Below are positions 49,656-60,489 of a stretch of DNA of 64,000 nt, piece after piece. The notes beneath the pieces were generated by a model. It was given only the letters and a program-made list of their open reading frames with translations, was not told the DNA's origin and did not search any database. Each line of letters opens with the position of its first letter. Position 1 is the stretch's first letter. Made by a program: the position numbers and the translations under genes. This stretch comes from Homoserinimonas sp. OAct 916 (GTDB taxonomy: Bacteria > Actinomycetota > Actinomycetes > Actinomycetales > Microbacteriaceae). The DNA lies in NCBI RefSeq assembly GCF_003260275.1, contig NZ_QJHB01000003.1, positions 248,001-312,000 on the forward strand, given 5' to 3'.

Positions 49656-50438
49656 ATGTCCGATATGACAACGAAGCGTGGCCGACTCATGGGGGCGGGA
49701 GCTGTCGTGGCCGTGGCCCTCTTGCTGGCCGCATGCGCGCAGGCCCCCGCTGGCCTGTCGCCGAGCGCGTCGGCAGTGGCTCAAACGCCCGCCACATCGC
49801 AGACAGACCCCGCCGAGACAGACGCCGAACCCGGTGTTTTGACGGATCCCCAGCCTTCTTCGGGACCGCCGTCATCCGATCCGAACTCGACCGCGCCCGG
49901 CTCGGCCCCGTCGGATGAAGCCTGCCTGGCCGGCAAGTGGAAGATGGACAACGACGTCTTCGCGAAGGCCATGCTCGCGATGGCGAAGGCGCACCCGGAG
50001 GCCGCGAAGGTGACGCAGGATTTCCGGGCATCCGGTGACCGGTTCCTCTGGTTCAGCGGTGACGGCGACTACGGAGCCACTGACGACAAATTTGTCCTGA
50101 CCACGGTCGGTGGGACCAACGGGAGAACCATGGAGGTGGTGACCACGCTCGACAGCGCGCGTATTGGTGCATACGGTGCTGTTGACGGGTTCCTCTGGGT
50201 CGCTGAGACCGAAACACTCTTCGAGGACGCCACGATGACGGTCGATAAGATCCAGGTGAGTATCAGCACGTCCTTGGGCGGCCCGACCGACGTGGATTTG
50301 TTCGGTTATACCGGTCAGATCCCCAACATCACCGGCGACCACAACTTCGATGGCGTGGCAATCTACCGCTGCGCGGGGAACGAGCTCGAACTCGAAGTCG
50401 ACGGCGGCATCATTTCACGTTTCACCCGCACCAAATAG
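49656..50438 (+). CDS. Lipoprotein, unknown function
   Basis: The 260-residue protein has a lipobox VALLLAAC (Cys about 27), then a Ser/Pro/Thr-rich linker to about residue 85 and a globular domain starting ACLAGKWKMD. Cysteines at the start and near the end of that domain (YRCAGNE) may pair. The ATG at 49656 follows a purine-rich AGGGGGAA. I do not recognise the domain; it resembles lipocalin-like small extracellular domains in length only. It is a single gene, divergent from tetR. Confidence 0.8.
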   Translation: MSDMTTKRGRLMGAGAVVAVALLLAACAQAPAGLSPSASAVAQTPATSQTDPAETDAEPGVLTDPQPSSGPPSSDPNSTAPGSAPSDEACLAGKWKMDNDVFAKAMLAMAKAHPEAAKVTQDFRASGDRFLWFSGDGDYGATDDKFVLTTVGGTNGRTMEVVTTLDSARIGAYGAVDGFLWVAETETLFEDATMTVDKIQVSISTSLGGPTDVDLFGYTGQIPNITGDHNFDGVAIYRCAGNELELEVDGGIISRFTRTK

Positions 50439-50492
50439 CGCGAGTCGCTATTCCGATGCGACTGCGCATCGCACGGACACGGGTGACTCCAG

Positions 50493-50555
50493 AAGTTCAG
50501 GAGAAGAGCACGCCCGGCCCGGATACCGGATCGGCCCACCTCTCCTCCTGAACTT
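50493..50555 (+). repeat. Hairpin repeat copy 1
   Basis: Left arm AAGTTCAGGAGAAGAG pairs with CTCTCCTCCTGAACTT at 15 of 16 positions, with a GC-rich middle (CACGCCCGGCCCGGATACCGG). TT follows the stem, giving TTTT in all. Confidence 0.85.
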
Positions 50556-50653
50556 TTGGCGTAGCCACCGAACCTGAGGGAGCCTCGCTGCGGCATCGCT
50601 GCACTTTCGGCGTGCGGTCTTCCGCCTCGCCTTCGAGCTGACACCCGTCCGCG

Positions 50654-50716
50654 AAGTTCAGGAGCAGAGCACGCCCGGCCCGGCTATAGGCTCGGCACCG
50701 CCATCATCCTGAACTT
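50654..50716 (+). repeat. Hairpin repeat copy 2
   Basis: Same left half as copy 1 (AAGTTCAGGAGCAGAGCACG and on, through CCCGGCCCGG), then CTATAGGCTCGG. Right arm CCTGAACTT is followed by TT. Confidence 0.85.
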
Positions 50717-50831
50717 TTGCGCCGCCGCCTCGGCCTCCCAACCCGTCCTCCACAGGATCCACGCCACACGATCCCGCACATATTTGTGCCGTGCCGCCCC
50801 GGTTGTCGGGCCGGGACGGCAGTCTGAGACG

Positions 50832-51719
50832 ATGACGCCCGCGGATGCCCTGGCCCAACTGTCCGGAGTCGGGCACTACTCGGCGCTCGAAGCCGCAGGC
50901 GTCAGCCGGCGTGAGGTCCTTGCGGCCGTGCGCCGCGGGGAGATCACCCGGGTGCGGAACGGCTGGTTCGCCTGTGTGGGTGCGCCGGTCGAAATGGTCA
51001 GGGCGGTCCGTGTCGGCGGTTCCCTCACGGCCGGTTCGGTCGCACGGCTGCACGGACTGTGGACCATGCCTGATTCTCGCCTCCACGTGCGGGTCGCGCT
51101 CAACGCAAGCAGGCTCTCCAGTGCGGACGGGGCGAGCCCGCTCGACCCGACCCGTCACGGCGTATGCGTGCATTACCGTCCCAGGCTCCCGTTGACAGCC
51201 GTTGACAGCCTCATTCGGGCTCTTGCTGAAATGTTCACCTGCGTCGATGAGGTCGCCGCCATTGTCTCCGTGGAATCTGCGCTCAACTCCGGTGCGTTTC
51301 CATCGTGGAGGTTGGCTGAATTGCGCGAACTCATTCTCCCCAGTAAGCGAGCCAGCCTCGCCAAGGTCGACGCGGGCGGCCAGTCAGGCCTGGAGACAAT
51401 AGTGCGCCTGCTGATGCGGTCGCACGGAGTTCGTTGTCGCACCCAAGTGGCGATTTTTGGTGTGGGTCGCGTTGACCTATTGATCGGTGACCGGTTGGTG
51501 GTGGAACTCGACGGCCGCGAGTTTCACGGGTCTGACTTCGAAGCCGACCGCCGGCGCGACTGGGAGCTGACGCAGCGTGGATACCACGTGGTGCGAATCA
51601 GCTACTCCATGGTGATGTTCGAGCGGGAGCGGGTCGAGGAGGGGTTGCTGGCGCTTGTTCGTCGTGGTGATCATCTCTGGCGCTACCGGCACCAGAAATC
51701 AGGAGCAGGGCGGCGCTGA
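50832..51719 (+). CDS. DUF559 (Vsr-like nuclease fold) protein with winged-helix N terminus
   Basis: The 295-residue protein has an AbiEi-antitoxin-like winged helix at the N terminus (ALEAAGVSRREVLAAVRRGE, about 18-37, then ITRVRNGWFA). At the C terminus is a DUF559 domain: VDLLIGDRLVVELDGREFH (about 214-232), RRRDWELTQRGYHVVRISY. The D-x(n)-E-x-D core fits a PD-(D/E)XK/Vsr endonuclease fold, so DNA cleavage is plausible but unproven. ATG at 50832; the frame continues to a TTG at 50784. No partner toxin gene is adjacent. It is flanked on both sides by the hairpin repeat family. Confidence 0.82.
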   Translation: MTPADALAQLSGVGHYSALEAAGVSRREVLAAVRRGEITRVRNGWFACVGAPVEMVRAVRVGGSLTAGSVARLHGLWTMPDSRLHVRVALNASRLSSADGASPLDPTRHGVCVHYRPRLPLTAVDSLIRALAEMFTCVDEVAAIVSVESALNSGAFPSWRLAELRELILPSKRASLAKVDAGGQSGLETIVRLLMRSHGVRCRTQVAIFGVGRVDLLIGDRLVVELDGREFHGSDFEADRRRDWELTQRGYHVVRISYSMVMFERERVEEGLLALVRRGDHLWRYRHQKSGAGRR

Positions 51720-51754
51720 GGGTGTGGGCGGGTCGGCAGCGCCCTGCTCCTGAA
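51700..51754 (+). repeat. Hairpin repeat copy 3, overlapping the DUF559 stop codon
   Basis: TCAGGAGCAGGGCG (51700-51713) pairs perfectly with CGCCCTGCTCCTGA (51741-51754). The left arm encodes the last residues of DUF559. It may also act as its terminator. Confidence 0.85.
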
Positions 51755-52020
51755 CATTCGAGTCGCGTCACGTGCTGCAGTTTGACCGGGGGCGCGGAGC
51801 TGGGCCCGATGTGCGGTGGTGCTGGAGCTACCCGACCGATGGGTGGTGCGGAAGTTTCAGGTGGAGGGGCTCACCGAGGCTATAGCTGAACCGGGTGTGC
51901 TCTGCTCCTGAGTTTTGAGCTGCCCTGAGGGCCGATGGGCTGTGGGAGATTGGCGGTGTGGGGCGCTGGCAGCGCAGCACCATCGGCAGCGCAGCACCGC
52001 CGGCAGCGGCGGCGGCCCGG
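51720..52020. other. 301-bp intergenic stretch with repeats
   Basis: The stretch separates the convergent DUF559 and membrane-protein genes. It holds the right arm of hairpin copy 3, copy 4, and a GGCAGCGCAGCACC word repeated near 51967-51998. No gene is seen. Confidence 0.55.
51852..51916 (-). repeat. Hairpin repeat copy 4, inverted
   Basis: Read on the minus strand it is CTCAGGAGCAGAGCAC, then CCCGG, then GCTATAG and CTCGG, ending CCTGAAACTTC. It therefore matches copy 2 along its length in opposite orientation. Confidence 0.8.
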
Positions 52021-60009: not shown

Positions 60010-60050
60010 ACTCGGGTCACCTCCTGAACAATAGGTGCACACCTGCTCCC
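60009..60050 (-). repeat. Shine-Dalgarno leader repeat, copy B
   Basis: Minus strand: GGGGAGCAGGTGTGCACCTA, then TTGTTCAGGAGGTGA before the ATG at 60009. CACCT can pair either with AGGTG upstream of it or with the AGGTG of the Shine-Dalgarno sequence. Confidence 0.7.
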
Positions 60051-60157
60051 CAGAAACCCGGGAAGCCTTCAGGCAGGCATGTCGGCACTGCCTCAACTCG
60101 GTGGCGCAGCCCTTTTGGGGCGTAGATTTCTGGCGGTATCCGATTGTGGCTATCCAT
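60017..60157 (-). CDS. Short upstream frame coupled to the 59557 frame (tentative)
   Basis: A 46-residue frame starts at ATG 60157 after AGGAGGTG with about 8 nt spacing. It ends GVHLLFRR, whose last codons and stop (TGA, 60019-60017) are the Shine-Dalgarno sequence of the next frame, so translation could be coupled. No homology is recognised. Confidence 0.3.
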   Translation of the reverse strand: MDSHNRIPPEIYAPKGLRHRVEAVPTCLPEGFPGFWGAGVHLLFRR

Positions 60158-60198
60158 GCCTGGCGCACCTCCTGAACAGTAGGTGCGCATCTGCTCCC
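60157..60198 (-). repeat. Shine-Dalgarno leader repeat, copy A
   Basis: Minus strand: GGGGAGCAGATGCGCACCTA, then CTGTTCAGGAGGTGCGC before the ATG at 60157. GCGCACCT and AGGTGCGC form an 8-bp stem that would hide the Shine-Dalgarno sequence. Confidence 0.7.
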
Positions 60199-60489
60199 CA
60201 ACGGGTCTGGCCTCCCCGCGGATTGCCATGTTCTGTTCGCCTCTACTGAGATGCCGGTGCACAATCGGTGTGTCGGACCGCTTTCTGTGTTCGACCCAAA
60301 GCCGGGGGAGGAAGGGGACGGCAGCAAACGCTGTTACGGGCACGATGGCGCCGCGACCGTGAAGTTGGGGTCGACTCGGCCAGCCGACGCATTAGCACAC
60401 CGTCGCTCGATCAATGATGTGCCGGTATCCCATAGTCCCAAGATGCCTTCTGCCGATTCGCGAGGGCGTCCGCGCGTGAACCGCGCAGT

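Follow-up and report, generated by a model that had tools for sequence, protein, structure and literature searches.

Phased inverted repeats bracket DUF559 nuclease-type genes in Microbacteriaceae and may be cognate sites of the encoded proteins

A DUF559 gene in the 64,000-nt stretch of the Homoserinimonas sp. OAct 916 genome analyzed here (the window) lies among four short repeats, which raises the question of what these repeats are and whether they are connected with the protein encoded between them. The first-pass annotation described them as hairpins, likened their layout to REP sequences around a RAYT transposase gene and offered duplicated terminators as a plainer reading. The repeats themselves are real: a gap-free 77-nt alignment joins all four copies (Table 1), and the TTCAGGAG-to-CTCCTGAA core is exactly 57 nt long in each of the four when one mismatch per arm is allowed. 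The window contains seven occurrences of TTCAGGAG against 1.69 expected, a count reached in 0 of 100 shuffles. Each copy is a dyad, in which a pair of inverted half-sites (core AANTCAGGAG) encloses a stretch of DNA whose length is fixed. Of the letters reported as shared beyond the arms, GCTATAG is found in copies 2 and 4 only and is missing from copy 1, and copies 1 and 2 are not identical in the stretch said to be common to them, copy 1 reading GAAGAGCAC and copy 2 GCAGAGCAC. Elsewhere in the window, two near-identical direct repeats of ~35 nt (60018-60052 and 60166-60200, 148 nt apart) carry one minus-strand TTCAGGAG half-site each, with no partner at 57 nt.

Table 1. Positions of the DUF559 gene and the four dyad copies in the window
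Feature	Position	Strand	Remarks
DUF559/MTES_1575 protein gene	50832..51719	+	295 aa; putative AbiEi-like winged helix, weak match, aa 19-42; putative Vsr-like nuclease domain, aa 191-274
Dyad copy 1	50486..50562	+	half-sites 50494-50503 and 50545-50554; best model match in the window genome, E 8e-16 (used in building the model)
Dyad copy 2	50647..50723	+	84% like copy 1
Dyad copy 3	51688..51764	+	first half-site encodes the last residues of the DUF559 protein, KSGAGRR, and the stop
Dyad copy 4	51846..51922	+	in the convergent gap past the DUF559 gene

The 295-aa protein matches the MTES_1575 model (E 1.5e-8, 35 bits, below the Pfam cut-off of 38.2) and the DUF559 model (E 4.9e-7, 30 bits, above the cut-off of 20.6). 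Its match to AbiEi_4, at 0.008, is below the Pfam cut-off; among 10 homologues, Pfam AbiEi matches were obtained for five and weak PADLOC AbiEi matches for eight. The nuclease-type residues D215, E225, D227, H232 and D239 are invariant in all 10. Profile searches matched the endonuclease-like protein of PDB entry 3hrl (8.9e-7) and, without significance (E 0.27), the mobile intron protein 3r3p, which we take to be I-Bth0305I. In a single-sequence fold model (mean pLDDT 38), residues 1-48 resemble a winged helix and the remainder is unreliable. No NCBIfam family was found for 7 proteins at E <= 0.01, and the closest named relative is a Microterricola pindariensis protein (67% identity). The available text of PMC3710099 names the MTES_1575 domain a Vsr-type nuclease domain, there as part of a large fused protein. 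Judged from these profile matches, the DUF559 protein is predicted to join an AbiEi-like winged helix, weakly matched, to a Vsr-like nuclease domain.

A covariance model built from 14 copies was run on the 3.64-Mb genome that contains the window (the window genome). It retrieved 34 full-length dyad places, 77 nt each on the better strand, the weakest with E 0.29; 14 of the 34 were the model-building copies, and a 55-nt partial match at C135:69086 was excluded. Since model searches favor a fixed length, all claims about length rest on gap patterns. The pattern AANTCAGGAG-N{30,60}-CTCCTGANTT matched 37 of 299 family genomes, in 22 of 85 genera, and the wider gap N{61,90} matched 25 of 299; the control pattern, read backward, matched none of the 299. 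With the short gap N{0,29}, matches were obtained in only two of 17 positive genomes, both of which hold tandem arrays. A pattern-negative genome may still carry diverged copies: the window genome itself has one exact match versus 34 model places.

The lengths of the dyads are stepped. Among the matches listed there were 189 places, 30 of which (G102 and G263, tandem arrays) were left out of the periodicity test. The remaining 159 fall into classes with mean lengths of 62.1, 74.2, 85.6, 95.8 and 107.7 nt, with two exceptions, of 68 and 92 nt. The step is ~11.3 bp; no uniform control among 2000 reached this periodicity, which holds also when each genome-length pair is counted once (71 pairs). 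Overall, the dyads span about 52-110 nt, with arms some 40-90 nt apart. Individual genomes have preferred lengths (61 in G162 and G260, 62-63 in G149 and G291, 74-75 in G029, 85-86 in G257), and the dyads of G021 are spread over 74, 85-86, 96 and 107-108. B-DNA in solution has about 10.5 bp per turn, and values near 11 bp per turn have been reported for loops in living cells. We infer that the two half-sites are probably held on the same helical face. In G102 and G263, half-sites are additionally arranged in tandem direct arrays with units of ~21-22 nt (e.g., L165 12366-12449 and L187 5842-6002), and one such array stands upstream of a DUF559 gene. Close pairs of dyads, 80-180 bp from start to start, are frequent: window copies 1-2 and 3-4, G291:C1 1048174/1048256 and 2179558/2179640, and G149:C1 2317129/2317293.

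"Hairpin" is the wrong picture of these elements, because the copies form no copy-specific stems beyond the arms; on the evidence of pairing in their sequences, the window elements are best described as spaced inverted sites. For the 34 window-genome copies, interior complementarity is 0.498, against 0.480 +- 0.016 when halves are swapped, and the mean likeness between copies is 0.77 in the arms and 0.48 in the interiors. The corresponding interior pairing values, own versus swapped between copies, are 0.448 and 0.444 for G029, 0.389 and 0.423 for G023, and 0.304 and 0.312 for the 86-nt copies of G257. The interiors of the four G260 copies are 0.71 complementary, a figure without a control, and 0.76 alike. 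Interior likeness was no higher than in the shifted control in G023 (0.36 versus 0.38) and G291 (0.36 versus 0.40) and slightly above it in G029 (0.40 versus 0.34) and G257 (0.37-0.39 versus 0.32-0.33). A search of Rfam over 50400-52020 gave five matches at E <= 5 and none at the gathering score. A hairpin or structured RNA is not supported, given the lack of a gathering-score Rfam match and of copy-specific interior pairing. Among the matches listed, an off-center motif, CGACACGCC, is common to many dyad interiors of G257, G297 and G211 (L152-L157), and the dyad center in G162, G260 and G099 is often CCAC(T/A)(G/A)TGG or GTGGATAGTGG.

A profile survey of fetched stretches revealed DUF559 genes between dyads in the window, in Microterricola (L031) and in G162, G029, G257, G211, G149, G291, G023 and G260, several of these stretches having been selected by dyad content ahead of any DUF559 search beyond the window genome. 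The fair count is based on 62 PF04480 matches in 18 dyad-positive genomes, 61 of which were used, and on a test that names no motif and calls a gene bracketed when dyads of equal length (+-2) that share an arm of 8 nt or more lie on both sides. By this test, 31 of the 61 genes are bracketed by same-arm, same-length dyads, compared with one of 241 control genes of 700-1300 nt from the same stretches, and that one lies inside the G029 dyad cluster. The figure of 31 is a low one, because the exact test overlooks plainly bracketed genes whose arms differ by one base (the window, L031, G029 C12, G211); among the 30 genes that failed it, those of the window and G263:C23 are bracketed under relaxed arms. 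Two of five further loci known as bracketed also passed (33 of 66 overall), and an earlier form of the test, without the demand for equal length, gave 34 of 66 versus 4 of 563 shuffles. When TCAGGAG was named, with up to two mismatches per pair, dyads were detected within 1.5 kb of 13 of the 61 genes, on both sides in 12, and in one of 360 shuffled control segments. The 18 genomes were selected by TCAGGAG dyads, which may inflate this arm family and not the others. In five of them (G102, G297, G136, G283 and G195), no gene with TCAGGAG dyads on both sides was found, and in G102 dyad copies lie upstream of the DUF559 gene only.

Enrichment of the repeats near DUF559 genes was the check that the first-pass annotation had set for a link between the two. 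Within the window genome alone it looks weak, with only the window locus among six PF18741 places adjoining TCAGGAG-type dyads; this looked negative because the other DUF559 genes of the genome lack this arm family. Across the 18 genomes, the bracketing counts and the change of arms with lineage (see below) bear the link out, and DUF559 proteins and dyads very probably belong together. In G023 (L111 1607-2784) and G260 (L160 12446-13499), a bracketed gene is split in two frames with its dyads kept; unless sequencing errors account for the splits, dyads can persist after the gene is no longer intact. Bracketing is seen much more rarely at the level of the class than in the family: 3 of 30 loci (G052, G353 and G343), the 30 including the window's own, negative in that test, and seven with short flanks. 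Among four plasmid records, one has both-sided dyads (Actinomyces oris NZ_CP116225.1, 122 nt with 14-nt arms); the three Tsukamurella records have none by the exact test, and one shared arm is seen by eye in L269. The class-level and plasmid tests permitted a wider length range and had no control of their own. One phage record matches the DUF559 protein.

The arms read from the brackets vary. Besides TCAGGAG, they include ATGCAGGAG, CAAGGAGT and CGGGAGGA and, in a distant protein clade, GGGTGGCCA, GATCGGTCGC, GAGGGGTCA, ATCGAATGCCC and others. A 58-protein tree places (C)AGGA(G)-type arms in 19 of 22 labeled members of the window clade and in none of 8 elsewhere (Fisher 2.8e-5, for relatives that are not independent and an arm type defined after the labels were known). 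Since arm sequences follow the protein tree, cognate dyads could be predicted in other genomes. Searches for ATGCAGGA dyads gave 24, 36 and 34, copies beside the gene included, in G291, G149 and G029, the three genomes with bracketed genes of that lineage, and none in five others in which the lineage was not found; the reversed-pattern control also gave 0. A second bracketed gene of the window genome, C84:109172 (a weak PF04480 match of 20.0 bits against the cut-off of 20.6), has its own set of seven GAGGGGTC dyads, all of 65 nt except one of 66; two of the seven adjoin the gene. Two separate protein-site pairs therefore appear to share this genome. Because the arms covary with the protein lineage, we infer that the DUF559 protein recognizes the dyads, and we consider its binding to them likely.

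The dyads are mainly extragenic. According to a simple purpose-made gene caller, 20 of the 34 window-genome copies lie in co-directional gaps (16 of them no more than 75 nt from the stop codon of the upstream gene), 11 in convergent and two in divergent gaps, and one overlaps the DUF559 gene end. The 75 dyads in stretches from ten other genomes, with a coding share of 84.5%, comprise 27 co-directional, 17 convergent, 15 divergent and 13 genic ones and 3 at edges. Divergent gaps are thus not avoided in general, and the scarcity in the window genome (2 of 34) is ruled out as a rule by the 15 of 75 elsewhere. The last codons of the gene run into the downstream dyad in the window and in L107, L155, L157, L164, L170 and L111. 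Among the dyads listed, those of G029:C12, G023:C6 and G257:C1 (about 1.045-1.136 Mb) crowd into ~100-200 kb, unlike those of the window genome, which are scattered over many contigs.

Bracketed genes were found in at least five neighborhoods, as judged by protein comparison within ~9 kb, one of them common to three genera. The dyads themselves come and go: one in G029 has no counterpart at the same place in G023, and a place common to both holds one 74-nt dyad in G029 and two 63-nt dyads in G023. The interiors of the two dyads of one gene are 0.89 identical in G162 and 0.97 in G260, versus 0.57 between these species, whereas three orthologous G257/G211 dyads are 0.67-0.76 alike in their interiors and 0.95 in their arms. 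The former pattern looks like concerted change by copying within the genome, and the latter, a slow divergence, like plain descent. Direct repeats at mirrored offsets, as expected of target-site duplication, are near expectation in the window genome, G029, G023, G257 and G211 (34, 23, 12, 13 and 4 copies). Classical transposition is not supported, since no target-site duplication is seen in these five sets. A single master-copy MITE was also rejected, the interiors of G023 and G291 being too unlike and target-site duplication lacking.

The explanation of the whole that we prefer, and to which we give about an even chance, is a nuclease with cognate double-stranded sites that forms a REP-like, largely selfish repeat system. 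The DUF559 protein would have the dyads as its cognate double-stranded DNA sites, and two protein copies would bind the inverted half-sites via their AbiEi-like winged helices on the same DNA face; the half-sites would have to stand a whole number of turns apart, and the intervening DNA would be largely free. The DUF559 gene would thus be bracketed by its protein's own sites, and the nuclease domain would nick or cut at or near a dyad. Cutting would promote recombinational copying of dyads, and on rare occasions of the gene they bracket, into further places that are mostly extragenic. Protein and sites would persist together, each nuclease lineage with its own arms, through selfish rather than useful upkeep. 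That the protein cuts and thereby spreads the dyads could go either way. We suggest with some hesitation that this is an undescribed protein-linked repeat class, in which Vsr-type nucleases with AbiEi-like domains would have an orthogonal family of phased dyads per lineage; the enzyme would copy its own dyads and keep their spacing uniform, and in the course of lineage divergence the spacing of all of them would shift in concert, in whole helical turns.

Four other explanations were weighed. The dyads could be DUF559-bound sites that serve the host (in a regulon, in looping or in chromosome architecture); the protein would then be a domesticated DNA-binding factor, and nothing would spread. 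A looping protein requires phased spacing, the three orthologous G257/G211 dyads keep their arms far better than their interiors, and the listed dyads of G029, G023 and G257 crowd one region each; the invariance of the five nuclease-type residues in 10 homologues, the gain and loss of dyads between relatives, the several neighborhoods of bracketed genes and the two arm families side by side in one genome nevertheless make this explanation unlikely. Another proposal is that the dyads are autoregulatory operators of the DUF559 gene in the style of an AbiEi antitoxin, solitary copies making up a regulon. It would account for the AbiEi-like domain and for the dyad upstream of bracketed genes, and AbiEi proteins repress through inverted repeats, according to the available text of PMC7319586. 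An equally conserved dyad, however, overlaps or follows the gene end, and most window-genome copies stand after genes rather than before them, so we regard operators as quite improbable.

Inverted ends, fixed phased lengths and dispersed copies both with and without the gene would also be expected of miniature inverted-repeat elements that DUF559 or some other transposase mobilizes, with phasing needed for the two ends of so short a DNA to pair. The absence of target-site duplication in five genome sets, interior likeness that in G023 and G291 does not exceed the shifted control, and a gene that lies between two complete dyads and not two single ends argue against such elements, which we consider improbable. 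For the idea that the dyads terminate transcription in both directions or serve as 3' processing sites, their nearness to DUF559 genes being accidental, the window genome does offer some encouragement: 16 of its 20 co-directional copies are no more than 75 nt from the preceding stop codon, convergent gaps hold 11 of the 34 copies and divergent gaps only 2, and copies 1 and 2 end in TTTT. Arms ~40-90 nt apart and lengths in ~11-bp steps make the duplicated-terminator reading of the first-pass annotation less likely, and with no copy-specific interior pairing, arms that are lineage-specific and tied to DUF559, and divergent placement of 15 of 75 dyads elsewhere, terminators have very little probability left.

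The preferred explanation, a nuclease with cognate dyads, resembles several known systems in part. The likening of the layout to RAYT/REP proved apt in that cognate dyads are both beside the DUF559 gene and dispersed in the genome. In the available text of PMC8266576, a RAYT gene, of nuclease type, accompanies lineage-specific palindromes that are dispersed and mostly extragenic and whose mode of spreading is unsettled, and RAYTs are HuH enzymes acting on single-stranded hairpins of 20-50 nt that follow a tetranucleotide, most often GTAG. The DUF559 system likewise combines a nuclease-type gene with dispersed, mostly extragenic, lineage-specific sites, as in the RAYT (TnpA-REP)/REPtron case. 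It differs in its protein, for which the only matching models are Vsr-like/DUF559 and AbiEi: in 10 homologues, Pfam at E <= 0.01 returned only MTES_1575, DUF559 and AbiEi_4, and no HuH (Y1) transposase. The sites differ as well, being phased dyads of ~52-110 nt without copy-specific stems, and no GTAG is found at the ends of the window copies in their alignment. Because enzyme family and site type both differ when tested, the DUF559-dyad pair works like RAYT/REP but is not a member.

The gene of the EDxHD enzyme I-Bth0305I is located inside a group I intron, and the enzyme has one target, whereas DUF559 genes are free-standing and bracketed by dyads present in tens of copies. According to the available part of a review (PMC3943268), this Vsr-like homing enzyme dimerizes on a target of nearly 60 bp; the Vsr-type nuclease domain with separate DNA-binding parts described there and the dimer on a long target would be points of likeness to the predicted DUF559 architecture. 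AbiEi antitoxins of type IV toxin-antitoxin systems bind inverted repeats (PMC7319586, available text), and the N-terminal domain of the DUF559 protein matches AbiEi models; its C-terminal half is instead a nuclease-type domain by its matches, and its sites are scattered through the genome and found after the gene as well. Caulobacter VsrA (CCNA_02930), also a DUF559, Vsr-like protein, is tied to DNA damage in cells without cytosine methyltransferase in the available text of PMC12907096, which differs in that neither "hairpin" nor "inverted repeat" occurs in it. No report of a DUF559-dyad link was found in the open-licence literature as judged by titles and abstract openings, which is not proof of absence. 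The analysis turned up no known kind of system built from these parts, and the system would accordingly be categorically new; it would be a variant if any nuclease gene with dispersed cognate palindromes is counted as one kind.

DUF559 matches are present in 39 of 60 genomes sampled across the class, no accepted role was found for DUF559 in class genomes, and the ties between lineages and sites give the family testable targets. If the proposed explanation is true, it would provide a second answer, with unrelated parts, to the origin of dispersed extragenic palindromic repeats, and DUF559 proteins would be naturally diversified DNA-binding nucleases whose site codes may be read from the genome.
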